From: Microvirga sp.
Lineage (GTDB): Bacteria > Pseudomonadota > Alphaproteobacteria > Rhizobiales > Beijerinckiaceae
NCBI GenBank assembly: GCA_029266525.1
Contig: JAQSWQ010000002.1
Coordinates: 1-64,000 of the forward strand
DNA: 64,000 bases
Direction of reading: 5' to 3'
How positions within the stretch are numbered: position 1 is the stretch's first letter; each line of letters starts with the position of its first letter. Shown piece after piece: positions 39,493 to 60,112 of the stretch. Below the pieces are notes generated by a model that saw only the letters and a program-made list of their open reading frames with translations, had not been told where the DNA came from and ran no database searches. A program made the translations under genes and the position numbers.

Positions 39493-40713
39493 TTAAGCCC
39501 GCGCCTCGGCTTGCGCGGTTCGCGAGAGGCGAGCCTTCCGCCCGACGGCGCTCTTCTTGGCTCGCTTCGATTTCTTCGCCTTGCCCTTCCCACCCTCGAG
39601 CAGCGCGACGCTGTCCTCGAGCTTGTCCTTCAGCGTGCGCTTCAGGCGCGCCTCGAGGAAGGTCAGGACAGCGGCCTCCTCGGGCCGCAGGTCCGGCAGG
39701 TTCTCGCGCAGCTCGGCTTCGACCTCGCCCTTGATCTGGAAGAGCAGCTGGCCTTCGGCATAGGCCGTCAGCACCTCCGGATGGACGTAGCATTTACGGC
39801 AGATGGTCGGCGTGTTGCCGAGGCGCGAGGCGACGCGCTCGATCGCCGCCTTTACGTTCTTCTTGAGCGCCGCCTTGGTGTCGAAGTCCTGGAACTCCTG
39901 CAGCGCCATGGCGGCAAGCACAGTGCCTTGCCAGGTGCGGAAGTCCTTCGCCGTGATGTCGCGGCCGGTGATCTCGCGCAGATAGGCGTTCACGTCGGAA
40001 GACGTGACGTCGCGGTGCTCGCCGTCCTCGTCGACATAGCCGAACAGCTCCTGCCCGGGCAGGTCCTGACAAGCGCGCACGATCTTGGCGATGCGCCGGT
40101 CCTTCACCTGCAGGCGCCAGACCTTGCCGCTCTTGCCCTTGAACTCGAAGCGCAGCTCGGAGCCGTTCACCTTCACATGCCGGTTCTTGAGGGTCGTGAG
40201 GCCATAGCTCTTGTTCTGCTTCGCGTAGTCGTCGTTGCCGACGCGGATCAGCGTCGACTCGAGAAGGTGCACCACAGTGGCCAGCACCTTCTCGCGCGGC
40301 AGGCCGGGCAGGGCCATGTGCTCGGCGAGCTTCGCTCGCACCGCCGGCAGCGCCTTCGCGAATTCGAGCATGTGCTCGTATTTCGTGCTCTCGCGGACGG
40401 CGCGGAAATCGGGGTGGTAGCGGTACTGCTTGCGGCCTCTCGCATCGCGGCCCGTGGCCTGGATGTGGCCGTTCGGCTTCCGGCAGATCCAGACGTCGGT
40501 GTAGGCGGGCGGGATGGCGAGCTTGCGGATGCGCTTCAGCGTCGCCTCGTCCTCGACCTTGGCCCCGCCCGGGCCGATGTAGGTGAAGCCCTTGCCGGCC
40601 TTCTTGCGGCGTATGCCGGGCTCCTCGTCGGAGACGTAGGTCAGCCCCACGCTCTCGGCCGCATCGCGCGGGTCGACGATGGCCTCGGCGGACAGGGACG
40701 GATCGAGGAGCAT
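39493..40713 (-). CDS. DNA topoisomerase IB (poxvirus-like)
   Basis: A 406-residue type IB topoisomerase that relaxes DNA by a 3'-phosphotyrosine link. The N-terminal domain (to about residue 100) contains GKGFTYIGPGG and IPPAYTDVWIC. The catalytic domain has STLIRVGNDDYAKQNKSYGL with the first catalytic Arg, GKVWRLQVKD with the Lys region, FRTWQGT with the second Arg, and the nucleophile Tyr309 in CRKCYVHPE. The Lys/Arg-rich C-terminal tail is not conserved. Such enzymes occur in many alphaproteobacteria in addition to TopA and gyrase, often under stress control. A GGAAC-N17-GGTT promoter-like site lies 30-55 bp upstream. Confidence 0.92.
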   Translation of the reverse strand: MLLDPSLSAEAIVDPRDAAESVGLTYVSDEEPGIRRKKAGKGFTYIGPGGAKVEDEATLKRIRKLAIPPAYTDVWICRKPNGHIQATGRDARGRKQYRYHPDFRAVRESTKYEHMLEFAKALPAVRAKLAEHMALPGLPREKVLATVVHLLESTLIRVGNDDYAKQNKSYGLTTLKNRHVKVNGSELRFEFKGKSGKVWRLQVKDRRIAKIVRACQDLPGQELFGYVDEDGEHRDVTSSDVNAYLREITGRDITAKDFRTWQGTVLAAMALQEFQDFDTKAALKKNVKAAIERVASRLGNTPTICRKCYVHPEVLTAYAEGQLLFQIKGEVEAELRENLPDLRPEEAAVLTFLEARLKRTLKDKLEDSVALLEGGKGKAKKSKRAKKSAVGRKARLSRTAQAEARA

Positions 40714-40742
40714 GGGGCTGGGACTCTCGTAGGGCGGTCGTC

Positions 40743-40768
40743 AACCGGTCCGGAAGGAGGAAGGTTCC
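40743..40768 (-). promoter_or_regulatory. Candidate EcfG promoter for topoisomerase IB
   Basis: On the minus strand GGAAC (40768-40764), 17 bases, GGTT (40746-40743). It fits the GGAAC-N19-TT form of the rhizobial stress-promoter rule, with one mismatch in CGTT. The distance to the ATG at 40713 is suitable. Confidence 0.45.
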
Positions 40769-40778
40769 GTAAGGGCGA

Positions 40779-41052
40779 TCAAGCCGCGCGGCGGTCGTTG
40801 CGGATCTCGAGGAATAGGATCGTGCCGCTGAGCGCGAGCGACAGCGAGTTGAAGACGATCAGGGGCAGCGCGCCGATGACGAAGCCGTAGGCGGATCCAG
40901 AGCACGAAGGCCGTCACGGTCACCATGTACATGCGCTTCGAGATCGCCGCGGTGTCGCCCTCGCGGATCGCCTTCATCACCTGCGGCACGAAGCTCGAGG
41001 TCGACAGAAGCCCTGCAATCGATCCCAGCACCGTCGGCAGCCAATGCTCCAT
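40779..41052 (-). pseudogene. SemiSWEET-type sugar transporter, single-base frameshift
   Basis: SemiSWEETs are about 90-residue, three-helix, PQ-loop sugar uniporters that work as dimers. The first part reads MEHWLPTVLGSIAGLLSTSS, then FVPQVMKAIREGDTAAISKR and MYMVTVTAFVLWI, matching helix one, the PQ motif and helix two. The frame is then lost. Removing one C (or G on the plus strand) near 40893 restores AYGFVIGALPLIVFNSLSLA and ILFLEIRNDRRAA, the rest of helix two and helix three, with the usual N-terminal start and a stop at 40779. Either the gene is recently broken or the base is a sequencing error. ATG 41052 has a GGAGAGGG site. Confidence 0.75.
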
Positions 41053-41146
41053 CGCCCTCTCCGCTCGCTCCGCCGGCCAGCACGGGAGCGCGGCCGCGCG
41101 GCGCACAAGGTTCCCGCGCCCTTCCTCTCCCTCCGCGCGAGAAGGA

Positions 41147-42087
41147 TTAAAATATTACAGCTCTTCGTATCGGGTGGGTACTATCAAAGGTCGTCTCAAA
41201 GACCTTTAAGAGCTCTCGAGTGAAGTGGTGGACTTCGTTCTTCAACTCTCGAAAGAGTGGATCGCTTCGCTCAGAACGCTTCAGCCTTTTGAGCCTTTCA
41301 CGAACTGATGCGTTTTCCAGTTTTTCCAGGAATCTGTCGTAGCTGGCCCACACTCTCTCAAGGTTTGCAGTTCCACAAATCCTGTTCATTCGCTGCATTA
41401 CGGGAAGGTCAAATAGTTCTTCTAGTAATTCTATTTTTCTTTCCCGATCACGATCAGCTGTGACAGCTACACTGAAAAGGCCACTTGCATAAAGTAGCTT
41501 GCGTGAAAAAATGAGCTTTATATTTCGAATATCCCAGGGTTTCGGACTTCTCCCTTCGGTAGTTTTGAATTCATAATCCACCGCTATCGTCCGATAATAA
41601 CGGATCACGTCGTTAAGAAGAAACAGAGCAAGTTGGTGATCGGTCATCTCCTCGGAGATATATCGCTCCAACATGGAGCGCCTAAGTTTTCGTAGCCCCT
41701 CCGCATTAAACATCCACTCTCCCTCTAGAAGAAACAACATTCTACGAGTTATCTTGAGATTCGTATCATTCTCCCCTCCAATATTTTGTAACATTGACTC
41801 TGGCGTTTCGACGTTGGCGAAAGCGCCGCCTTCCGCGGGCTCGACAGGGACGATCGTTGCAATCAGATCCTTTGCTTCCTTAATCCACGACGCCGCAGGG
41901 TCACCTGGATCCCGCGGTAGGTGGTCGGTGACGATAAAGAAGTCGATATCCGACTCCGCCGACGCTTCGCGGCGAGCGTATGACAAGTAAGAACTATGTT
42001 TGCGCTAGGTACCACCGGCTCTAATACCGCCCTGAGAGCCTTCAACTTCTTGTTTGAATGCTCCTTAGCTCGTTCTGTCGCTGTCAT
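41147..42087 (-). pseudogene. Nucleotidyltransferase-fold gene with an apparent frameshift
   Basis: The 3' frame (41147-41986) encodes SYARREASAESDIDFFIV, the nucleotidyltransferase GS-x-SDID motif, then a helical C-terminal domain with LFLLNDVIRYYRTIAVDYEFK and RNIKLIFSRKLLYASG, known from uncharacterised NTase proteins. The family's upstream part, MTATERAKEHSNKKLKALRA and PSANIVLT, lies in the frame of the neighbouring HD gene; joining the two near 41985 needs one inserted base. A possible start is ATG 42087 with AGGA upstream. The codon use and base composition are markedly AT-richer than the surroundings, a sign of transfer. Product function is unknown; a broken gene, an error or a joint HD-NTase polypeptide are all possible. 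Confidence 0.7.
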
Positions 42088-43293
42088 CGAAAAAATCCTA
42101 ATCGGCCTTGAGTGGACGGTGTGAACGGTGTGATCGCTCCGAGAAATGGCGAGTCGGCGAAGCTCCTTCCGTTGGCGGTACCGCCGCGTATCGTCTCGAG
42201 CAAAAAAATTTGTAGCCGGATCAACGAAGAAAGTTCGCTCCATGAACGGTAACTCTGCGGGAACGTACTCGGCGGCTTCGGCAGTGAATATCCGACTTCT
42301 TAGCAAGCGTCGCAGCCCGGGAAGTTTGGAGAAAACCTCTCGTTCCGTCGACAAATAATCTACGGCGGAAAATCGTGCAATATTGGATCGCATAAAGGCC
42401 TGACACACGGCATCCGACAGCACCCCTGCCGGAGAATTTATGAGGTATCGGTACATCTGGTCCTTGTAAGCCCAAAAAGAGTCTACTAACCGTCGATCCA
42501 TTTCCGAGGCCCGCCGCAAGGCGGCGCAAGTAACCTCCTCAGGGGTTGGCAAGTGCTCGACGGGTCCCACCATTACGCGGCATCGTAGGATTGCTTCGAT
42601 AGTGTCGAAATTGATTGGGCCGCCAAAAAAATCGTGAAATCCACTTTCCCGGCCAGTGGCGAGCGCCGCCACGTGCTCCACATCGACGTGGTATGCGCGG
42701 AGGTAGTTGTAAACGTCCCTACCGATTGGCACGCGTCCACAGATGATGTCCTCTGACGTGCGATGATGTTCGACGCCGAAGTACTCATAAAAGATGGGCT
42801 CGAGAGAGTGGGATAACGGCGCGTGCCCCACGTCGTGCAGAAGTGCAGCGGCGCAAACGACACGAAATTCGTGCTCCGAAAGCTGCTGCTCGGCGGAATA
42901 GAGAGCGGCGAGGCGCGTCACTCCAAGGCTGTGCTGATGGCGTGTGTATCTTTTGTTTCGTCCTGACGCGTTCGGCCAGGGTACCAGGACATAATCAATG
43001 CCGCCCAAAAAGCGGATGCTTTTGAGCCTCCTCACGGCGCGCGTTGTCAACAGCAGCTTCAGGAAAGGGTCATCGCGAACGACCCCGTCCGCGAGAGGGT
43101 CAGCGTAGCTGTATCCGAGCGCACCTGCGGGGCGACTTAGGTGCATTTCCATTCGCAAATCCAGGGATGGGAACCCAAGGCGTGTTAAAGGTAGCGGAAG
43201 CGTAGTCAGAGCACTACTGATCCTCATGGCGAGCGCTGCGGCTCTGCTGCTATCCGGTGCGAATAAGCGACGCAACGTCGGCGAATCCCTCAC
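41863..43293 (-). CDS. HD-domain phosphohydrolase, SAMHD1/dGTPase-like
   Basis: A frame of 476 codons whose first 390 or so residues form an HD-superfamily protein of the SAMHD1/dNTPase type. The N-terminal YADPLADGVVRDDPFLKLLLTT and RRLKSIRFLGG match the family's opening. Metal ligands are visible: TRHQHSLGV (His121), ALLHDVGHAPLSHSLE (His153-Asp154), and a later Asp in NFDTIEAIL. Relatives hydrolyse dNTPs or other nucleotides and some act in phage defence. The frame does not stop before the NTase region but continues through its first 35 residues, then out of frame to 41863. The start is GTG 43293 (GGGTGA site) or ATG 43227/43152. The sequence is AT-richer than its neighbours. Confidence 0.78.
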   Translation of the reverse strand: MRDSPTLRRLFAPDSSRAAALAMRISSALTTLPLPLTRLGFPSLDLRMEMHLSRPAGALGYSYADPLADGVVRDDPFLKLLLTTRAVRRLKSIRFLGGIDYVLVPWPNASGRNKRYTRHQHSLGVTRLAALYSAEQQLSEHEFRVVCAAALLHDVGHAPLSHSLEPIFYEYFGVEHHRTSEDIICGRVPIGRDVYNYLRAYHVDVEHVAALATGRESGFHDFFGGPINFDTIEAILRCRVMVGPVEHLPTPEEVTCAALRRASEMDRRLVDSFWAYKDQMYRYLINSPAGVLSDAVCQAFMRSNIARFSAVDYLSTEREVFSKLPGLRRLLRSRIFTAEAAEYVPAELPFMERTFFVDPATNFFARDDTRRYRQRKELRRLAISRSDHTVHTVHSRPIRIFSMTATERAKEHSNKKLKALRAVLEPVVPSANIVLTCHTLAAKRRRSRISTSLSSPTTYRGIQVTLRRRGLRKQRI

Positions 43294-43404
43294 GTTTCAC
43301 CCGCTACTTCGCACGCAGCCTTCCCGGGGGCTTTCGCAACGAAGCCAGCGCCCAACGAGGGCGGCGTGGCCCTCTGCCCATGGTTGCTCTAGAAGCGCGG
43401 GGGC

Positions 43405-44541
43405 ATGAACGCGCCCGCCAAGAGAATCGCCTTCATCGTCACGGAGGACTGGTTCTTCGCCTCGCATTTCCTGCCGATGGCCCGGGCGGCGCGGGAGGTG
43501 GGGCTCGAGGTGGCGGTGATCGCGCGGGTGCGCGAGCACCGCGCCGCGATCGAGGCGGCGGGGGCGAAAGTGATCGCGCTCGAGGCCGAGCGGCGCAGCC
43601 TCAATCCTGCCGCGGCCGGCTACTCGGCCGGACGGCTCGCGGCGATCCTCAAGGCCTGGAAGCCCGACATCGTCCACTGCATCGCGCTGCGCCCGATCCT
43701 GATCGGCGGCGCGGCGGCGCTGATGGCCGGCATTCCCCGTCGCGTGTTCGCGCTCACCGGCACCGGCTTCCTCGGCGCGCGGCAAGATATCGTCGGAGGC
43801 GGTGCGCGAAGCGCGATCCGCATGCTGGTGCGCGGCCTGGCGACGAAGCAGACGCATTACCTTTTCGAGAACCCCGACGACGCGGCGCTGCTCGGGCTCG
43901 ATCCGGCCGACAGCGGGCGGGTGACGATCCTCGGCGGCGCAGGGGTCGATGCCGATCATCTTCGCGCGGCGCCGCTGCCGGTGCAGCCGCCGCTGAAGGT
44001 CGCGGTTGTCGCCCGCATGCTCTGGTCGAAGGGCATCGACCTCGCGGTCGAGGCCGCGAAGCTCGCCCGGGCGAGGGGCGCCCCGGTGGAGCTGTCGCTC
44101 TACGGCGCGCCCGACCCTTCGAACCCGAAGGCGATCCCGGAAGAGACCCTGCGCGCCTGGAGTGGCGAGCCCGGTATCGCCTGGCGCGGGCGGACCGAGG
44201 ACGTGGCCGCGGTCTGGCGCGAGCATCACGTCTGCTGCCTGCCCTCGCGGGGGGGCGAGGGGCTGCCGCGCACGCTTCTCGAAGGCGCGGCCTGCGGACG
44301 CGCGCTCGTCACGACCGACGTACCGGGCTGCCGCACCCTGGTGCGGGACGGCATCGAGGGCTTCGTCGTGCCGTCGAACGATGCGGCGGCGCTGGCCGAC
44401 GCCTTCGTGAGGCTCGCGGCCGATCCGGCGCTCGTCGCCGGCATGGGCGAGGCCGCCCGGGCGCGCATCCTCGACGGCTTCACCGAGCGCGACGTGATGG
44501 AAGCCGTGAAGCGCGTCTATGCGGCGATGCTCGAGCGATGA
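43405..44541 (+). CDS. Glycosyltransferase family 4/1 (GT-B fold)
   Basis: A 378-residue cytoplasmic or membrane-associated glycosyltransferase. The N-terminal domain opens IAFIVTEDWFFASHFLPMARAAREVG with a GTB-type fold. The C-terminal domain has PPLKVAVVARMLWSKGIDLAVEAA (donor domain start, K in WSKGI), and the acceptor/donor E motif is SRGGEGLPRTLLEGAACGRALVTTDVPGCRTLV, here in outline, with the EG..RTLLEG glutamates. It probably transfers a sugar from a nucleotide donor during capsule, LPS or glycolipid synthesis. The stop overlaps the next gene's ATG (ATGA). Base composition returns to the chromosomal norm here. Confidence 0.88.
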   Translation: MNAPAKRIAFIVTEDWFFASHFLPMARAAREVGLEVAVIARVREHRAAIEAAGAKVIALEAERRSLNPAAAGYSAGRLAAILKAWKPDIVHCIALRPILIGGAAALMAGIPRRVFALTGTGFLGARQDIVGGGARSAIRMLVRGLATKQTHYLFENPDDAALLGLDPADSGRVTILGGAGVDADHLRAAPLPVQPPLKVAVVARMLWSKGIDLAVEAAKLARARGAPVELSLYGAPDPSNPKAIPEETLRAWSGEPGIAWRGRTEDVAAVWREHHVCCLPSRGGEGLPRTLLEGAACGRALVTTDVPGCRTLVRDGIEGFVVPSNDAAALADAFVRLAADPALVAGMGEAARARILDGFTERDVMEAVKRVYAAMLER

Positions 44542-51052: not shown

Positions 51053-52495
51053 ATGGACAATCTGGCGTTCCGCGGGCGGGCGGCTTCGGAGCCCCTGGTC
51101 TCCCTGGCCATGCAGCGTGCTCTGCAGTCCTGGGACGGGCTGATCAAGAGTCTACCGATCGGGGTCTACACCTGTGACCGCGAAGGCGTCCTCGTCCAAT
51201 ATAATCGGCGCGCCGCCGAGCTGTGGGGCCACGCACCGATCCCCGGAGACACGCAGTTCCGCTTCTGCGGCACCTACCGTGCCTTCAAGCCCGACGGCAC
51301 GCCGCTCGACCCCGCCGAGGCTCCGGTGGCAGAGGTTCTGCGCACCGGCCGGCCGGTGCGGAACCGAGAGGTCGTCATCGAACGGCCCGACGGGCAGCGC
51401 CTGTTCATTCTCGCGAATGTCGATCCGCTGCTCGACGAGCACGGCGAAATCCTCGGCGGCGTGAACTGTTTCCAGGACATCACCGCCCTCAAGGAGGCTG
51501 AGGCTGCGAAGGCGGAGCGGGAGCGTCGGACGCGCGAGCTCCTCGAGGCGCTGCCGGCCGCGATCTATACCACCGACGCGTCCGGACGGATCACCTTCTA
51601 CAACCAGGCTGCGATCGACCTGTGGGGCTGCCGCCCTGAGATCGGCTCGAGCGAATGGTGCGGGTCTTGGCGCCTGTGGTGGCCGGACGGCACGGCGCTC
51701 CCGCACGACGAATGCCCGATGGCCGTGGCCCTCAAGCAGAATCGCCCGGTGCGCGGCTACGAAGCCGTCGCCGAGCGGCCCGACGGCACGCGCGTGCCCT
51801 TCATCCCGTTCCCGACGCCGCTCCGGAACGAGGAAGGAGAGCTGATCGGCGCGGTCAACATGCTTGTCGACGTGAGCGAGCGGAAAGTGGCGGAGACGCG
51901 CCAGCGCGCGCTGGTCGACGAGCTCAACCATCGCGTCAAGAACACCCTCGCGACCGTCCAATCGCTCGCCGCGCAAACGATTCGCGGCTCCGATGTTCCG
52001 GGTGGGGTGCGCGAAGCCTTCGAGGCACGGATCGTCGCGCTGTCGCGCGCCCACGACCAGCTCACCCGTGGCGCTTGGGAATCGGCCGACCTTGCGGCGA
52101 TAGCGGACGCGGTTGTCGCCCCCTTCGGCGATGGCACTGACCGGCTATCGATCAAAGGCCCGCCCGTCCGCCTCCCGCCGCAATCGGCACTGACGCTTGC
52201 CATCGTCCTGCACGAGCTTGCGACCAACGCCGCGAAGTACGGTGCTCTGTCGAACAGCGCCGGCACCGTTGGGCTCTCCTGGAGCGTGACCGCGAACGGC
52301 GCTGGCCCACGACTCGAGATAGAGTGGCGCGAGGTGTGCGGCCGCGCGATCGGCGCGCCCGCTCGCAAGGGCTTTGGGACGCGTCTCATCGAGCGCGGCA
52401 TCCGGCAGGAGCTGAAGGGCGCCGCCGAGATCGCCTACGATCGGACGGGCCTGCGTTGCCGCATCGAGATTCCGGTGGCATCCACGGGGACATGA
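51053..52495 (+). CDS. PAS-PAS HWE-family sensor histidine kinase
   Basis: A 480-residue soluble sensor kinase. Two PAS domains (about 30-150 and 160-285), each with a CGTYRAF/WRLWWPDGTALP-like and PAC pattern, precede the HWE kinase core. The phosphorylatable His293 lies in ELNHRVKNTLATVQS, typical of the HWE/HisKA_2 group. The ATPase domain has HELATNAAKYGALS and a C-terminal GFGTRLIERGI. Such kinases in alphaproteobacteria feed the PhyR/NepR/EcfG stress cascade or light/oxygen sensing. The PAS ligand is unknown: no LOV cysteine motif (NCRFLQ) is seen. ATG 51053 follows GGGGGAG. The stop overlaps the response regulator start (ATGA). Confidence 0.92.
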   Translation: MDNLAFRGRAASEPLVSLAMQRALQSWDGLIKSLPIGVYTCDREGVLVQYNRRAAELWGHAPIPGDTQFRFCGTYRAFKPDGTPLDPAEAPVAEVLRTGRPVRNREVVIERPDGQRLFILANVDPLLDEHGEILGGVNCFQDITALKEAEAAKAERERRTRELLEALPAAIYTTDASGRITFYNQAAIDLWGCRPEIGSSEWCGSWRLWWPDGTALPHDECPMAVALKQNRPVRGYEAVAERPDGTRVPFIPFPTPLRNEEGELIGAVNMLVDVSERKVAETRQRALVDELNHRVKNTLATVQSLAAQTIRGSDVPGGVREAFEARIVALSRAHDQLTRGAWESADLAAIADAVVAPFGDGTDRLSIKGPPVRLPPQSALTLAIVLHELATNAAKYGALSNSAGTVGLSWSVTANGAGPRLEIEWREVCGRAIGAPARKGFGTRLIERGIRQELKGAAEIAYDRTGLRCRIEIPVASTGT

Positions 52496-52878
52496 GCGAA
52501 CCCGCTCCGCGCGGCGCGTCCCCTCTCGCAGGCTTGACCGTCCTCATCGTCGAGGACGAGACCATCATCTCGTTCCTGATCGAGGATATGGCACTGGAGC
52601 TCGGCGCGGGCGAGATCTGCCACGCAGCGGGCGTTGCGGAGGCGCTGGCGTTCCTGGCCGAGCGCCGGCCCGACACCGCGATCGTCGACGTCAATCTCGG
52701 CGGCGAGCTTGCCTATCCGGTCGCCGAGCGTCTCGCCGCGCTCGGCGTGCCGTTCGTCTTCGCGACCGGCTACGGCCGGCAGGGCGTGTCGGCCGGCTGG
52801 GACAGCCACCCGGTGTTGCAGAAGCCGTTTCCCGTCGAGACGCTAGCGCGGGAGATGCGGGAGGTGCTGGCGCGGTAG
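52492..52878 (+). CDS. Single-domain response regulator, FAT GUY type
   Basis: A 128-residue receiver-only protein. VLIVEDET supplies the acidic pocket, Asp66 in IVDVNLGG is the phosphorylation site, and the beta4 motif is FVFATGYGRQG (Phe90-Ala-Thr-Gly-Tyr95 region), close to the FAT GUY motif. Lys111 in LQKPF is the conserved lysine. FAT GUY receivers such as SdrG and MrrA act in the general stress response of alphaproteobacteria. It is coupled to the HWE kinase by ATGA overlap and is probably its direct partner, acting as phosphate sink or adaptor toward PhyR. Confidence 0.9.
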   Translation: MSEPAPRGASPLAGLTVLIVEDETIISFLIEDMALELGAGEICHAAGVAEALAFLAERRPDTAIVDVNLGGELAYPVAERLAALGVPFVFATGYGRQGVSAGWDSHPVLQKPFPVETLAREMREVLAR

Positions 52879-53054: not shown

Positions 53055-54320
53055 TTACGTATTCATCGAATCGAAGAACTCGCTGTTGCTCTTGGTCTGG
53101 CGCAGCTTGTCCTGGAGGAACTCGATCGCATCGATTACGCCCATCGGGTTGAGGATGCGGCGCAGCACGTACATCTTCTTCAGCGTGTCCTTCTCGACCA
53201 GCAGCTCCTCCTTGCGGGTGCCGGAGCGGGTGATGTCGATCGCCGGGAAGACGCGCTTGTCGGAGACCTTGCGGTCGAGGATGATCTCCGAGTTGCCGGT
53301 GCCCTTGAACTCCTCGAAGATGACCTCGTCCATGCGCGAGCCGGTATCGATCAGCGCCGTCGCGATGATGGTCAGCGACCCGCCTTCCTCGATGTTGCGC
53401 GCCGCGCCGAAGAAGCGCTTCGGGCGCTGCAGCGCATTGGCATCGACGCCGCCGGTCAGCACCTTGCCCGAGGACGGCACCACGGTGTTGTAGGCGCGCC
53501 CGAGCCGGGTGATCGAATCGAGCAGGATGATCACGTCGCGGGAATGCTCGACGAGGCGCTTCGCCTTCTCGATCACCATCTCGGCGACCTGCACGTGACG
53601 CGAGGCCGGCTCGTCGAAGGTCGAGGACACGACCTCGCCCTTGACCGAGCGCTGCATGTCGGTGACCTCCTCCGGCCGCTCGTCGATGAGGAGCACGATG
53701 AGATAGGCCTCCGGGTGGTTTGCGGAGATCGACTGGGCGATATTCTGCAGAAGCACCGTCTTGCCGGTGCGCGGTGGCGACACGATAAGGGCACGCTGGC
53801 CTTTGCCGATCGGCGCCACGATGTCGATGACCCGGGCCGAGTAGTCCTTCTTGGTCGGATCCTCGACCTCGAGCTTGAGCCGCTCGTCGGGATAGAGCGG
53901 CGTCAAATTATCGAAATGGACCTTATGCTTGATCTTTTCCGGGTCCTCGAAGTTGATCGTGTTGACCTTGAGCAGCGCGAAGTAGCGCTCGCCCTCCTTT
54001 GGCCCGCGGATCGGCCCGTCGACCGTGTCGCCGGTACGAAGCCCGAAGCGGCGGATCTGCGAGGGCGAGATGTAGATGTCGTCCGGCCCCGGCAGGTAGT
54101 TCGAATCGGCCGAGCGCAGGAAGCCGAAGCCGTCCTGCAGCACCTCGACGACCCCGGCGCCGATGATCTCGGTCTCCTGGGCCGCGAGCTGCTTCAGGAT
54201 CGCGAACATCAGCTCCTGCTTGCGCATGGTCGAGGCGTTCTCGACCTGGAGCTCTTCGGCGAAGGTGAGAAGTTCGGTGGGCGACTTGGACTTCAGGTCC
54301 TGAAGCTTGATTTCCCTCAT
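53055..54320 (-). CDS. rho: Transcription termination factor Rho
   Basis: A 421-residue hexameric RNA-dependent ATPase that ends transcription. The N-terminal Rho-N domain opens [18 protein letters not shown]. The cold-shock-like RNA-binding part (about 55-130) has DGFGFLRS. The P-loop [10 protein letters not shown] is near 181-190, Walker [17 protein letters not shown] near 260, and the R-loop/Q-loop region ([21 protein letters not shown]) is intact. The start ATG 54320 was chosen from the conserved N-terminus; the upstream open frame is the leader. Order hemE-hemJ-rho is conserved in Hyphomicrobiales. The 218-bp gap 54321-54538 has no gene and may serve as an autoregulatory leader. Confidence 0.97.
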
Positions 54321-54538
54321 GGGAAGACTCTCGGGATGTAAGATCGCCTTCAATGCCGGGAGACGGCGGGCGAACGCGGGGAGAGGAACGGGCGACAGAG
54401 CGTCGTTGGTTCGCGCGTCACTCGCGGCTTTGGGAACCGGGCCCGACGCGGCGCGACCTGTCTCAAGGAAGGCGGTCTGCTTAGCCGCTTTTGAGATGGG
54501 CCTCAAGCCCCAGCAAGTCAATCCTCCCGCGCTTCACC

Positions 54539-54964
54539 CTAGAAGGGCTTCACGACGACGAGGATCACGATGCCGATCATGAGGAGCGTGGGGACCTCGT
54601 TCCAGAGGCGGTAAAAGCGGGCGGGCCGGGTGTTGCGGTCGGCGGCGAAGTCCTTGAGCCAGCGCACATAAAGCCCGTGCATGGCGGACATGGCGACCAC
54701 CAGCGCGAGCTTGCCGTGGAGCCAGCCGGCCTTCCACCAGCCTCCGGCGAAGACGAGGTAGAGGCCCAGGAGCCAACTCGCGATCATGGCCGGGTTGATG
54801 ATCGCCTTGAGGAGCCGCCGCTCCATGATCTTGAAGGTCTCCGACCGCACCGAGCCGTTCTCGGTGTCGGCGTGATAGACGAAGAGCCGCGGCAGATAGA
54901 GCATCCCGGCCATCCAGGCGATGATAGCGATGACGTGAAAGGCCTTCAGCCAGTCGTAGAGCAC
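54539..54964 (-). CDS. hemJ: HemJ protoporphyrinogen oxidase
   Basis: A 141-residue, four-helix inner-membrane protein (TIGR00701/UPF0093) that oxidises protoporphyrinogen IX, a late haem-pathway step. VLYDWLKAFHVIAIIAWMAGMLYLPRLFVYH (outline) contains the conserved His and Trp-x-Ala-Gly-x-x-Tyr-x-Pro-Arg. RRLLKAIINPAMI, WLHGKLALVVAMSAMHG and FYRLWNEVPTLLMIGIVILV complete the family. GTG 54964 was chosen, with AAGGA 8 bases upstream; a TTG two codons earlier is possible. It lies 75 bases after hemE on the same strand. Confidence 0.93.
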   Translation of the reverse strand: MLYDWLKAFHVIAIIAWMAGMLYLPRLFVYHADTENGSVRSETFKIMERRLLKAIINPAMIASWLLGLYLVFAGGWWKAGWLHGKLALVVAMSAMHGLYVRWLKDFAADRNTRPARFYRLWNEVPTLLMIGIVILVVVKPF

Positions 54965-55039
54965 GGGCAAGTCCTTAGCGGCGGGTCGTGATGGCAGGCC
55001 GGCGCTGAGGCGGCAAGGCGGGCCGGCGGCTTGTCCCCG

Positions 55040-56077
55040 CTACGCCCGGATCCGCGCGACCATCGCCTCGACATGGGCGAGCGGCGTTTCCGGCAGGATG
55101 CCGTGGCCGAGATTGAAGATGTGCGGGCGGGCTTGAGCGGCGCGCAGCACCGCATCGACGCCATGGCGGAGCGCGTCCCCGCCGGCGATGAGGGCGAGCG
55201 GGTCGAGGTTGCCCTGCGTCGCGAGCCCGTCGGGCAACTCCGGGAGAACCACATCGAGATCGAGCGACCAGTCGAGCGCGACCGCGTCGGCGAAACTCGC
55301 CTCGACGAGACGCGCGAGGTTCGCACCCGCGCCCCGTACGAACACGATCGCCTTTGCCTGCGGCCGCGCCCCTTTGAGGCCGCGCACGATCGCGCGGATG
55401 GGGTCGAGCGAAAGCGGTCCGAACAGCGCCGGCGGCAGTGCCGCCCCGAAGCTCTCGAAAATCTGCACGGCCTCGGCCCCGGCGTCTATCTGGGCCGTGA
55501 GATAGGCGACCGAGGCCTCGGTGAGACGGTCGATCAGGCTCAGCATGAAGGCCGGATCGCGATAGGCGAGGATGCGTGCCGGTGCCTGATCAGGCGTTCC
55601 CTTGCCGGCGATCATGTAGCTCGCGACCGTCCAGGGAGCGCCGCAGAAGCCGAGCAGCGTCGTCTCGGCCGGGAGCGCGCCTTTGACGCGCTCGAGCGCT
55701 TCCAGGACGGGCCCAAGGCGATCGAGCGGCAGGGTCTCCTCGAGCTGATGCAAATCGCCGAGCGAGCTCACCGGCGCGAGCCGTGGCCCCTCGCCCTCGG
55801 CGAAGGTGATCTCTTGCCCGAGCGCATGCGGGACGACGAGGATGTCGGAGAAGATGATAGCCGCGTCGAAGCCGAAGCGGCGGATCGGCTGAAGCGTCAC
55901 TTCCGCAGCAAGCGTCGGGTTGTAACAGAGATCGAGGAAGGAGCCGGCGCTGGCCCGGATATCGCGGTATTCCGGCAGATAGCGCCCTGCCTGCCGCATA
56001 AGCCAGACCGGCAGAGGCAGGACGACCTCGCCCGACAGCACGCGAAGGATCGCTTTCGAGGAAGGCGCTGCGCTCAC
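55040..56077 (-). CDS. hemE: Uroporphyrinogen decarboxylase
   Basis: A 345-residue cytosolic TIM-barrel enzyme that decarboxylates uroporphyrinogen III to coproporphyrinogen III. The signature PVWLMRQAGRYLPEYRD lies at residues 23-39, with the invariant Arg pair. FSDILVVPHALGQEI, FCGAPWTVASYMIAG and the late LDWSLDLD/ NLDPLALIAGG segments are typical. The start is GTG 56077 with a GGGAGA site. It is transcribed away from the predicted origin at 56078-56462, an arrangement like the hemE-oriC-RP001 locus of Caulobacter and Rickettsia. It heads hemE-hemJ-rho. Confidence 0.95.
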   Translation of the reverse strand: MSAAPSSKAILRVLSGEVVLPLPVWLMRQAGRYLPEYRDIRASAGSFLDLCYNPTLAAEVTLQPIRRFGFDAAIIFSDILVVPHALGQEITFAEGEGPRLAPVSSLGDLHQLEETLPLDRLGPVLEALERVKGALPAETTLLGFCGAPWTVASYMIAGKGTPDQAPARILAYRDPAFMLSLIDRLTEASVAYLTAQIDAGAEAVQIFESFGAALPPALFGPLSLDPIRAIVRGLKGARPQAKAIVFVRGAGANLARLVEASFADAVALDWSLDLDVVLPELPDGLATQGNLDPLALIAGGDALRHGVDAVLRAAQARPHIFNLGHGILPETPLAHVEAMVARIRA

Positions 56078-56462
56078 CGGGAATCTCCCAAAAAGAAAAC
56101 AAAGATTGAATCTTTCTTTTGTTGTTTCTCTTGGGGGCTGAATCCCGGAGCCGCAAGGTCGTCCACAATCCGCTCACAGCGCTGTGGGCTGATTGCGCTG
56201 CGCCATGTGGCGCCGCAGCGGGTCAAAGGGGTTAACAATTCGTAAATCCCGACAGATCGTTAGCGACCCCTGCCGAGCGGCACCCGGGCACGGCAGGAAC
56301 TTGCCTATCCCGGATTCTCCCGTACCGAGTCCATCGGCGCTCCACGTTACGGCTTTGTTGACGCCGGATGGAGCGCGTGCACAGGGCGTCTCGCTGGACC
56401 TTCCGGACCGGCCGAACTATCCACAGCGCTTGACTACTTATGCAGCGCGGCAGGACAGGTTG
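56078..56462. other. Predicted chromosomal origin of replication (oriC)
   Basis: The gap between hemE and the regulatory-kinase gene is where oriC lies in Caulobacter and several other alphaproteobacteria. It is AT-rich near 56090-56130 and includes the palindrome AAAGATT-G-AATCTTT (56101-56115). A CtrA-like site, TTAA-N7-TAAA, lies at 56232-56246. DnaA-box-like sequences are TCGTCCACA (56159-56167) and CTATCCACA (56417-56425; one mismatch to TTATCCACA). GANTC sites occur at 56081, 56108, 56140, 56313 and, just beyond, 56499, about four times more than composition predicts. The weak points are the lack of a perfect DnaA box and no skew data from so short a window. Confidence 0.7.
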
Positions 56463-57293
56463 TTGGGGCGCAGCTACTACCACCTCCATCTCGTCTCGGA
56501 TTCGACCGGCGAGACTCTCATCATGGTCGCCCGCGCTGTCGCGGCCCAATACGAGGGCGTATCGGCGATCGAGCACGTCTATCCGCTTGTGCGCTCGTCG
56601 GCGCAGCTCGAGCGCGTGATCTCCGAGATCGAGCAGGCGCCGGGCATCGTGCTCTACACGCTCGTCGAGACCGAGCTCTCCGCTCGCCTCGAGCAGGCCT
56701 GCCGCGACACCGGCTCGCCGCATCTTTCGGTGCTTGCGCCGGTGCATTCGCTGATCCAGAGCTATCTCGGCACGCATTCGACGGCGCGGCCTGGCGCCCA
56801 GCACATGCTCAACGCCGAGTACTTCAAGCGCATCGACGCGATGAACTTCACGCTGATGCATGATGACGGGCAACTCCCGGCTGACCTCAACGACGCCGAC
56901 GTGGTGCTGATCGGCATCAGCCGCACCTCGAAGACGCCGACCTCGATCTATCTCGCAAACCGGGGCTTGAAGACCGCGAACATCCCTCTCGTGCCGAATG
57001 TGCCCGTGCCGCCGGCACTCGAGGCCGCCAAGAAGCCGCTCGTCGTGGGCCTCGTCGCCTCGCCCGAGCGCATCGTGCAGATCCGGCAGAACAGGCTGCT
57101 CTCGCTCAAGGCCGAGGGCGAGACCGACTACACCGACAAGGACCGGGTCGCCGAGGAGGTTGCGTTCTCGCGCCGCCTGTGCGCCCGCCACAACTGGCCG
57201 CTGATCGACGTGACCCGCCGCTCGATCGAGGAGACCGCCGCGGCGATCCTCGACCTTCATAGCCACCATCGCATGAAGTTCATTGCGGTGTGA
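56463..57293 (+). CDS. Pyruvate phosphate dikinase/PEP synthase regulatory kinase-phosphorylase (DUF299)
   Basis: A 276-residue bifunctional ADP-dependent kinase and phosphorylase of the DUF299 family (Rickettsia RP001 type), which controls PPDK or PEP synthase by threonine phosphorylation. The conserved opening [16 protein letters not shown] starts just after the chosen TTG 56463, with AGGACAGG upstream. The P-loop-like [18 protein letters not shown] is near residue 155, and [25 protein letters not shown] closes the protein. The frame is open upstream to 56193, but this covers origin sequence. The stop overlaps the maf start (GTGA). It diverges from hemE. Confidence 0.9.
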
Positions 57294-57898
57294 TCTCTCC
57301 CTGGCTGGCGCCCGCTCCCCTCCTCCTCGCTTCGACGAGCGCGACACGCCGTATGCTCATCGAAGCGGCAGGGCTGCCGGTCGAGACCGAGGCGCCTGGC
57401 GTTGACGAGCGCGCGATCAAGGCGGTCGTGCGGGGCGGTCCAGACGACCTGGCGCGCCGGCTTGCGGCCGAGAAGGCGCTCGCGGCGAGCCGCCGTCGGC
57501 CTGGCCGCGTGGTGCTCGGCGCCGACCAGGTGCTCGCGATCGATCGCGAGGTGCTGCACAAGCCGGAGGACCGCGAGGCTGCGCGCATGCAGATCGCGCG
57601 GCTCGCGGGACGCACGCACACGCTTCACGCCGCCTTCGCAATCGCATTCGACGGGGAGGTCCGGCGCGAAGGCCGCGACAGCGCGCAGCTGACCATGCGC
57701 CGGCTCGACCATCAGGCGATTGCCCGCTACCTTCATCTTGCCGGCGACGCCGTTACGACGAGCGTCGGCGGCTATCAGCTCGAGGGTGCGGGTATTCATC
57801 TGTTCGAACGGGTCGAAGGCGACCACTCGACCATTCTCGGCCTGCCCCTCATTGCCCTTCTCGCGAGCTTGCGGTCGCTCGACCTCCTGGCAATCTGA
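57290..57898 (+). CDS. Maf-family nucleotide pyrophosphatase
   Basis: A 202-residue cytosolic pyrophosphatase of the Maf family, which hydrolyses non-canonical or canonical nucleoside triphosphates and can delay septation. The family motifs are [20 protein letters not shown] at the N-terminus, [16 protein letters not shown] (acidic residues) and the [23 protein letters not shown] loop, shown in outline. The C-terminal [27 protein letters not shown] is intact. The GTG start at 57290 overlaps the preceding stop. The block DUF299-maf-aroE-coaE-dnaQ is conserved in Hyphomicrobiales. Confidence 0.92.
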
Positions 57899-57902
57899 GC
57901 GC

Positions 57903-58733
57903 ATGCCGATACCTAAAGCCTTCGTGGTCGGCCATCCGATCAAGCATTCGCGCTCGCCGCTGATCCACGGTCATTGGCTGCGCGAACACGGGCTCGAAGG
58001 CTCATACGAGCCGGTCGATGTCGCGCCGGAGGATTTCGCGAGCTTCTTCCGCAGCTTTGCCGAGAGGGGCTTTCGCGGCGGCAACGTGACGATCCCGCAC
58101 AAGGAGGCGGCCTTTCGCCTCGCCGACGCGACGACGGAGCGCGCGCGGCGGCTCGAGGCCGCGAACACGCTGTGGCTCGAGGACGGGCGCATTCATGCGG
58201 ACAACACCGACGTGATCGGCTTCGTCGCCAATCTCGACCAGGAGCTCGGCGCCTGGAGCGCGCGCACAGCGCTGGTGCTTGGCGCCGGCGGCGCCGCGCG
58301 CGGCGTCGTCGCGGCGCTCCTCGATCGTGTCGAGCGGATCGTGGTGGCGAACCGAACCGACGGCAAGGCGCGCGAGCTTGCCGGCTTCGCGCCAGGACGG
58401 ATCGATCCGATCGCCTGGGGCGAGATTCCGGCGCGGCTCGCCGAGGCCGATCTTCTCGTCAATACGACCGCGCTCGGCATGTCAGGTCAGCCGCCGCTCG
58501 AGCTCGAGCTTTCACCGCTGCCCTCGCACGCCGTCGTCACCGACATCGTCTACGTGCCGCTCGAGACCCCGCTCCTCGCCCACGCCAAGGCACGCGCGCT
58601 CCGCGCCGTAGACGGGCTCGGCATGCTGCTGCACCAGGCGGTCCCCGGCTTCGGGCGCTGGTTCGGCGTCACCCCGAAGGTCACGCCGGCGCTGCGCGCC
58701 TTGATCGAGGCCGACATCGTGAGCGGCCGATGA
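57903..58733 (+). CDS. aroE: Shikimate dehydrogenase
   Basis: A 276-residue NADPH-dependent enzyme that reduces 3-dehydroshikimate to shikimate on the aromatic amino acid pathway. The substrate motif [16 protein letters not shown] is at residues 8-23, the catalytic Lys67 in TIPHKEAAF, and Asp in NTDVIGF near 103. The Rossmann motif GAGGAARG is near 128, and VVANRT near 150 contains the NADPH-binding Arg. The start ATG 57903 gives the canonical N-terminus ([10 protein letters not shown]). It begins 4 bases after maf and overlaps coaE (ATGA). Confidence 0.94.
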
Positions 58734-59347
58734 CCTTCGTCCTCGGCCTCACCGGCTCGATCGGCATGGGAAAGTCGGTGACGGCGGGCATGTTCCGGGC
58801 GCTCGGCGTGCCGGTGCACGACGCCGACGCCGCCGTGCACGCGCTCTACCGCGGCGCCGCCGCGCCGCTCATCGCCAAGGCCTTTCCGGGCACCGTCGCG
58901 GACGGCATCGTCGATCGCGAGGCGCTGTCCAAGGAGGTGATAGGCCAGGCCGGCCGGCTGAAGGAACTCGAGTCGATCGTGCATCCGCTCGTGCGCGCCG
59001 AGCGCGACCGATTCCTAGCGCAGGCGATCGCGGCGCGCGCGCCGGTCGCGGTGCTCGACATCCCGCTCCTCTTCGAGACCGGCGGCAACAGGGATTGCGA
59101 CGCGGTGCTGGTCGTCACCGCCGCCGCCGCCGTACAGCGCGAGCGCGTGCTCGCCCGGCCGGGCATGACCAAGGATAAGCTCGAGGCGATCCTCGCAAAG
59201 CAGATGCCGGACGCGCAGAAGCGCGAAAGGGCGCACTTCCTTGTGGACACCGGCCGCGGCCTTGCTGCCGCCGAGCGCCAGGTCCGGGGTATCCTGCGGA
59301 CGCTCGCCGGGCGGCCGGGCCGCGTGCTCGCCCGCTCCGGCGTCTGA
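58730..59347 (+). CDS. coaE: Dephospho-CoA kinase
   Basis: A 205-residue cytosolic kinase for the last step of coenzyme A synthesis. The P-loop [11 protein letters not shown] is at residues 6-16. [11 protein letters not shown] and [12 protein letters not shown] are family motifs, and [10 protein letters not shown] is the conserved substrate segment. The ATG overlaps the aroE stop (ATGA). It is followed after 9 bases by dnaQ. The length is normal. Confidence 0.94.
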
Positions 59348-59356
59348 AGGCCGAGC

Positions 59357-60112
59357 ATGCGCGAGATCGTCCTCGACACCGAGACCACCGGCACAGATGC
59401 GGCCGCGGGCGACCGCGTCATCGAGATCGGCTGCGTCGAGCTCGTGAACCAGTTCCCGACCGGGCGCACCTTCCACGCCTACATCAACCCGAAGCGCGCG
59501 GTCTCGCAGGGCGCCTTCAATGTGCACGGCCTCTCCGAAGCCTTCCTCGCCGACAAGCCGGTCTTCGCCGCGGTCGCCGAGCCGTTCCTCGATTTCGTCG
59601 GCGACGGCCGCCTGGTGATCCACAACGCCGGCTTCGATATCTCCTTCCTCAATGCCGAGTTCGCCCGCACCGGCCACCCCGCCCTCGACATGGTGCGGGT
59701 CGTCGACACGCTCTCGCTTGCGCGTCGGAAGCACCCGGGCGCGCCGGCTTCGCTCGACGCGCTCTGCGCCCGCTACGGTATCGACAATTCCCGCCGCACG
59801 AAGCACGGCGCGCTCCTCGATGCCGAGCTCCTGTCCGAGGTCTATATCGAACTCATCGGGGGCAAGCAGGCCGATCTCGGCCTTTCGCTGCGCCCCTCCG
59901 CTGCCGCCCGGTCGAGCATCGTGGTCGCGAGGCGCGAGCGCGTGACGATCGCGCGCCTGACCGACGCCGAGCGCGAGGCGCACCTGGCCTTCATCGCCAC
60001 GCTCGGCGAAAGTGCCGTCTGGCGCCACTATGTAAGTCCGGAGGAGGGCTCGCGGCTCCGCCCCTCGTGTTCTTCAGTCGAACCGGCCCGGTTTACTCTC
60101 CGGCCCGCCTGA
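59357..60112 (+). CDS. dnaQ: DNA polymerase III epsilon subunit (proofreading exonuclease)
   Basis: A 251-residue 3'-5' exonuclease. The DEDDh residues are visible: Asp7 and Glu9 (VLDTETTG), Asp94 (HNAGFDISFLN), His150 and Asp155 (KHGALLDAELL). The exonuclease domain ends near residue 170. The C-terminal part is expected to bind the polymerase alpha subunit. The last about 30 residues (EEGSRLRPSCSS onward) look non-conserved and overlap by 20 bases the end of the convergent hydrolase gene. SecB commonly follows dnaQ in this order but is not found here. Confidence 0.93.
   Translation: MREIVLDTETTGTDAAAGDRVIEIGCVELVNQFPTGRTFHAYINPKRAVSQGAFNVHGLSEAFLADKPVFAAVAEPFLDFVGDGRLVIHNAGFDISFLNAEFARTGHPALDMVRVVDTLSLARRKHPGAPASLDALCARYGIDNSRRTKHGALLDAELLSEVYIELIGGKQADLGLSLRPSAAARSSIVVARRERVTIARLTDAEREAHLAFIATLGESAVWRHYVSPEEGSRLRPSCSSVEPARFTLRPA

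Follow-up and report, generated by a model that had tools for sequence, protein, structure and literature searches.

The chromosomal origin of Caulobacter crescentus, Cori, lies between hemE and a COG1806 gene and contains five DnaA boxes, one IHF site and five CtrA sites, and the origin of Rickettsia prowazekii occupies 384 bp (82.55% AT) between the equivalent pair, hemE (RP_885) and RP_001, as described in the cited sections of PMC1914354. The same sections give none to seven CtrA sites for related predicted origins. In the excerpts cited here, CtrA of Brucella abortus bound several promoters and not the origin (PMC2877005), and CtrA of Hyphomonas neptunium binds adjacent to the origin (PMC7200025); to the extent of these three sources, variation of CtrA sites at such origins is thus already published. 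It has also been suggested, in the part of PMC8116508 cited, that parAB may anchor origin position. A literature search covering titles and the openings of abstracts, in which the name of the sister strain was not queried, recognized no experimental origin for the group studied here.

The window analyzed, a stretch of 64,000 nucleotides, comprises bases 1-64000 of a 156,681-bp contig (C108) in an assembly of 4.51 Mb (G000; 135 contigs, 97% complete) from an uncharacterized Hyphomicrobiales bacterium. A sequence-only reading of this window had placed oriC between hemE and the gene for a DUF299 kinase. Our results uphold that placement, which is backed by the conserved boundary genes, the conserved DnaA boxes, the skew and KOPS trough of the complete same-genus sister genome (Rhizobiales bacterium YIM 77505, JQNH01000001.1, 4.19 Mb; G036, loci L037/L003) and the proximity of parS in relatives. 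On these comparative grounds, it is highly probable that the hemE-ppsR gap (56078-56462) is the chromosomal replication origin of this bacterium, of the Caulobacter/Rickettsia type. The gap is very likely an ordinary hemE-COG1806 origin, of an already known kind, with a weakened CtrA site. A likely origin is thereby given for an uncharacterized genome, and hence the direction of its replication.

Boundary genes and sequence elements of the gap

The gap is bounded by two divergent genes, hemE on the reverse strand (55040-56077; uroporphyrinogen decarboxylase, Pfam PF01208, E 7.4e-109) and ppsR on the forward strand (56463-57293; DUF299, COG1806-type kinase-pyrophosphorylase, Pfam PF03618, E 4.5e-93, also over the cut-off of NCBIfam NF003742), the hemE/COG1806 boundary that defines Caulobacter-type origins. 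The TTG at 56463, previously proposed as the ppsR start, aligns with the ppsR starts of relatives, in support of that assignment. The 385-bp intergenic region has a G+C content of 0.59 versus 0.66 in its own flanks and, at 41% AT, shows the elevation above the genome that is another property of this origin type. Adjoining hemE is an AT-rich stretch (56080-56135) that contains the most AT-rich 40-mer of the entire contig (77.5% AT) and is a candidate unwinding element.

All elements listed in the sequence-only reading were recovered at their positions. Two DnaA-box-like sequences on the forward strand, TCGTCCACA (box 1, 56159-56167) and CTATCCACA (box 2, 56417-56425), hold two conserved TCCACA cores, DnaA boxes being a feature of Caulobacter-type origins. 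Neither box matches the strict TTATCCACA, and no TNATCCACA box is present in the 385-bp gap; the two TCCACA occurrences compare with 0.13 in dinucleotide shuffles (P about 0.005). A CtrA-like site, TTAACAATTCGTAAA (56232-56246), has the form TTAA-N7-TAAA, with one mismatch to TTAA-N7-TTAA; it is the only site with at most one mismatch in the 64-kb window, and nine such sites, two of them exact, occur in the contig. Both strands of the gap were scanned for the IHF consensus WATCAN5WTR, a strict pattern that may miss real sites, and contain no match.

Five GANTC sites lie in the 385-bp gap, at 56081, 56108, 56140, 56313 and 56327, where shuffles that preserve dinucleotides give 1.49 (P about 0.01); one more, at 56499, falls inside the DUF299 gene. 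At the density of the window (97 in 64 kb), 0.65 would be expected in 426 bases, and within the 64 kb the 426-base windows with at least five GANTC are found around the hemE-ppsR gap only. Over the contig, five GANTC per 390 bp are reached at four places, one of which (near 117.8-118.1 kb) reaches six. GANTC is over-represented in intergenic regions across the Alphaproteobacteria except Rickettsiales, according to the cited part of PMC7987155, and to that extent some of the GANTC excess seen here is not particular to origins. When at least three GANTC and at least two TCCACA are required within 390 bp, the hemE-ppsR gap is the one place marked in the contig. Applied to 1.34 Mb of sequence samples of the sister genome, this rule marks seven places, the homologous gap among them, and motif counts alone therefore fail to single out the gap.

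Conservation of the gap and of its CtrA-like and GANTC sites

Examination of 105 loci yielded 99 divergent hemE-ppsR gaps, 90 of them distinct; four loci are dnaA- or gcrA-type neighborhoods without ppsR, and two (L029 and L100) have ppsR and no hemE match and were left out of the gap set. The ppsR protein of the window is 86% identical to that of the sister genome, and other close named records belong to Enterovirga, Microvirga, Methylobacterium and Salinarimonas, all of which GTDB places in the Beijerinckiaceae. When the 90 distinct gaps are compared with 664 kb of flanking sequence, TCCACA reaches 4.82 versus 0.35 per kb (about 14-fold), GANTC reaches 10.6 versus 1.7 per kb, and TTAA-N7-TTAA occurs 55 times versus none; the flanks are mostly coding, so these contrasts are partly between intergenic and coding DNA, and shuffled gaps are the better control.

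An alignment of 12 gaps (that of the window and 11 hand-chosen from the other 89) shows that conservation concentrates in the DnaA boxes, which hold 14 invariant columns of 18 versus 62 of 385 gap-wide (hypergeometric 4e-9). In box 1, six of nine columns are invariant and all nine near-invariant, and in box 2 eight of nine are invariant. The longest run of near-invariant columns is a block on the forward strand, TGTTTCTCTTGGG (56123-56135). Two more forward-strand blocks are TTGTTGA (56355-56361), with six of seven columns invariant and all seven near-invariant, and CTGGACC (56394-56400), and the first of two neighboring GANTC sites (56313-56331) coincides with a near-invariant GATTC block. 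These conserved blocks could in part be promoters of hemE and ppsR. The palindrome AAAGATT-G-AATCTTT (56101-56115), which contains one GANTC, was ruled out as a conserved element, with a single invariant column among its 15. A 30-bp imperfect inverted repeat, CAATCCGCTCACAGCGCTGTGGGCTGATTG (56166-56195; 26 of 30 positions matching by eye), overlaps the end of DnaA box 1 and is absent from the aligned relatives.

The 90 gaps were divided by ppsR identity to the window into group A (at least 72%; 50 gaps, the window included) and group B (below 72%; 40 gaps), a cut set after the motif table had been viewed. Of the group B gaps, 31 come from records labelled Hyphomicrobium, Filomicrobium or Hyphomicrobiaceae; one is from Xanthobacteraceae, another from Devosia, and the labels of the remaining seven are broader. 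Like the window, group B gaps have the hemE-ppsR pair, and the DnaA core is enriched in both groups relative to shuffles (129 versus 7.5 expected in A, 73 versus 9.3 in B). In contrast, the TTAA-N7-TTAA motif, when no more than one mismatch is allowed, is present in 50 of 50 group A gaps versus 1 of 40 in group B. Exact sites number 55 in group A (0 expected in shuffles), distributed over 44 of its 50 gaps, and none in group B, and in group A they depend on the spacer, with 55 at N7 versus five at N5, N6, N8 and N9 together. GANTC follows the same division, with 356 sites versus 131 expected in group A and 87 versus 83 in group B, where both signals are thus at chance. Group A also shares sequence blocks: CTGTTGA is found in 31 of its 50 gaps, CTGGACC in 35 of 50 versus 0 of 50 equal-length ppsR coding controls, and TCGACTC, anywhere in the gap, in 38 of 50.

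In group B, the three genomes examined each encode a CtrA with 87-90% identity to that of the window genome and a CcrM with 62-63%. TTAA-N7-TTAA is not enriched in one group B genome (CP051234.1, G149, the genome of locus L089), with one occurrence versus 1.3 expected in 0.64 Mb, and it may therefore be that CtrA uses a different motif in group B, and not that sites were lost at the origin. The sister genome has 15 versus 0 expected in 1.34 Mb, with none at N6 or N8. As a control, near-matches around ctrA were counted: there are none in the sister and window-genome loci, and one with one mismatch in each of the three group B loci. A more speculative reading, somewhat less likely than not, is that CtrA and GANTC marking of the origin is a family-level trait. 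It would be present in all 50 closer gaps and absent from 39 of the 40 more distant ones (mostly Hyphomicrobiaceae), even though CtrA and CcrM are encoded in the three such genomes examined, and would be subject to turnover or erosion in the species of the window. If so, the hemE-ppsR origin would form a natural series for the gain and loss of cell-cycle initiation control at a fixed origin. The 50 of 50 and 1 of 40 counts suggest that the brake on an origin can come and go while its location stays constant.

Position of the probable origin on the chromosome

The sequence-only reading had proposed cumulative GC skew as a check on the location, and the outcome was mixed. In the sister genome (67 samples of 20 kb), cumulative GC skew has its minimum in the 3.72-Mb sample and its maximum in the 1.61-Mb sample, and KOPS in the 3.74-Mb and 1.47-Mb samples, respectively; ppsR, at 3.669 Mb, places the gap inside the skew and KOPS trough, almost across the chromosome from the peaks. 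This trough extends widely (GC skew -1210 at 3.15 Mb versus a minimum of -1270; KOPS -40 at 3.43 Mb versus a minimum of -42), and skew consequently locates the origin to some hundreds of kb only. The gap also lies in a broad trough in a second relative (G141; 3.82 Mb, 40 samples of 16 kb), where ppsR, at 0.285 Mb, falls between the KOPS minimum at 0.10 Mb and the GC-skew minimum at 0.58 Mb, with the maxima at 1.92-2.02 Mb. The contig of the window, on the other hand, has no clean GC-skew switch at 56 kb (-0.003 to the left, -0.007 to the right), and its cumulative skew bottoms out near 104 kb; the KOPS bias has the expected sign, if only weakly (9 versus 12 on the left, 14 versus 10 on the right). 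The record of CP051234.1 could not be used for locating an origin, given that GC skew is positive in 37 of its 40 samples (L234-L273), which is unusual along a record titled chromosome and may reflect artificial contig ordering.

Searches for parS covered 30 of 148 relatives, hand-picked mostly for few contigs or closeness, and found it in 20; 15 of these have it no more than 20 kb from ppsR, and in the other five it is 41-190 kb away. Sixteen carry parS exclusively on the hemE side, three (G035, G075 and G085) exclusively on the ppsR side and one (G072) on both; three group B genomes had none. In the window genome parS is 59-61 kb from the gap, on the ppsR side, and adjoins gidA and parA- and parB-like genes; by profile matches, gidA and ParB are over a cut-off and ParA is below cut-offs only. 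Perfect matches to the parS pattern also occur on four other contigs of the assembly (C18, C30, C128 and C131).

Gene matches to the sister genome indicate that the segment from rho to a dnaQ-like gene (53055-60112), the predicted origin included, is reversed with respect to both flanking blocks, namely the gidA/parAB-like block (contig positions 115365-151561) and a block at 45.6-48.2 kb; this reversal could be an assembly error. The names rho, hemE, ppsR, UPF0093 protein (presumably hemJ) and exonuclease derive from profile matches, and the genes between them read, from their translations, as maf, aroE and coaE. Elsewhere in the window, positions 40001-44000 have a lower G+C content (0.59-0.62) than the neighboring 2-kb windows (0.66 and 0.74) and are possibly acquired DNA, and an HWE-type PAS histidine kinase gene (51053-52495) is followed by a reading frame (52324-52878) that is receiver-domain-like by eye.

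These data bear on whether the gap might be a divergent hemE/ppsR promoter region only, with DnaA, CtrA and CcrM acting there as regulators and the origin located elsewhere, for instance around contig positions 115-120 kb, where gidA, the parAB-like genes and parS are found. Such an arrangement would fit the skew minimum near 104 kb and the distance of 59-63 kb that separates parS and the parAB-like genes from the gap, and the skew of relatives is too coarse to tell the two locations apart. We nevertheless regard it as very improbable: gap and parS are at most 20 kb apart in 15 of the 20 parS-bearing relatives, enrichment of the DnaA core persists in distant gaps that have no CtrA sites, and the motif combination of the gap is found at no other place in the contig.

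Possible CtrA control and comparison with described origins

If the gap is the origin, DnaA would bind at least the two conserved boxes, and probably weaker ones too, and would open the AT-rich stretch beside hemE. Less firmly, CtrA in its phosphorylated form may occupy the region around 56232-56246 and impede initiation. The GANTC sites may report the methylation state after fork passage. The window genome encodes DnaA (contig C103, over the cut-off), CtrA (C69; 84% to a Caulobacter query of approximate sequence, and over the NCBIfam cut-off), a CcrM homolog (C132; a full-length match to the Caulobacter model that scores under its cut-off) and GcrA (C82; passing the Pfam cut-off and not the NCBIfam one). 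The earlier proposal that CtrA can block this origin has weaker backing than the placement: CtrA and a CcrM homolog are encoded and CtrA-like sites occur in all 50 closer gaps, the window included, but the window keeps a single imperfect site beside a degenerate neighbor.

The alignment with the sister genome bears on how that state arose. The sister sequence TTCACGAATCGTAAG aligns with TTAACAATTCGTAAA of the window, and at the adjacent position (56249-56263, by-eye alignment coordinates) the sister (L003) has TTAACAAATCGTTAA, an exact site, where the window has the degenerate CCGACAGATCGTTAG. One site has decayed and its neighbor is the better match, a pattern that resembles site turnover. 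A different account accepts the origin and holds that CtrA control has been lost in this species, leaving the imperfect site as a remnant and control to DnaA. In keeping with it, the gap is without an exact TTAA-N7-TTAA, the adjacent site has degenerated, and the GANTC that 10 of the 12 aligned gaps have after DnaA box 2 (within TCGACTC, by eye) is missing from the window, which has TTGACTA there. We consider this loss unlikely, since the remaining site departs by one mismatch only and is unique in 64 kb, and exact sites are likewise missing from five other group A gaps, yet a near-match is kept in 50 of 50, which suggests turnover, not loss. CtrA control of this origin is plausible from the motif comparison and perhaps weakening here.

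A close counterpart of the gap, that of Rhizobiales bacterium YIM 77505, is 387 bp long, and its DnaA boxes and conserved blocks align with those of the window; it differs in having one exact TTAA-N7-TTAA and seven GANTC, and in a parS 7-9 kb away on the hemE side. Compared with Cori, the window gap is poorer in elements: it has two DnaA cores and a single imperfect CtrA-like site, and the IHF consensus is not matched. Within the sections of PMC1914354 cited, however, the likeness to Cori extends to the boundary genes, the length (404 bp versus 385 bp here), an AT content above that of the genome, the presence of DnaA boxes and, with one mismatch in the window, a CtrA site of the TTAA-N7-TTAA type. 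The R. prowazekii origin, as given in those sections, is far more AT-rich (82.55% versus 41%), and it shares the gene pair with the window gap and is similar in length.
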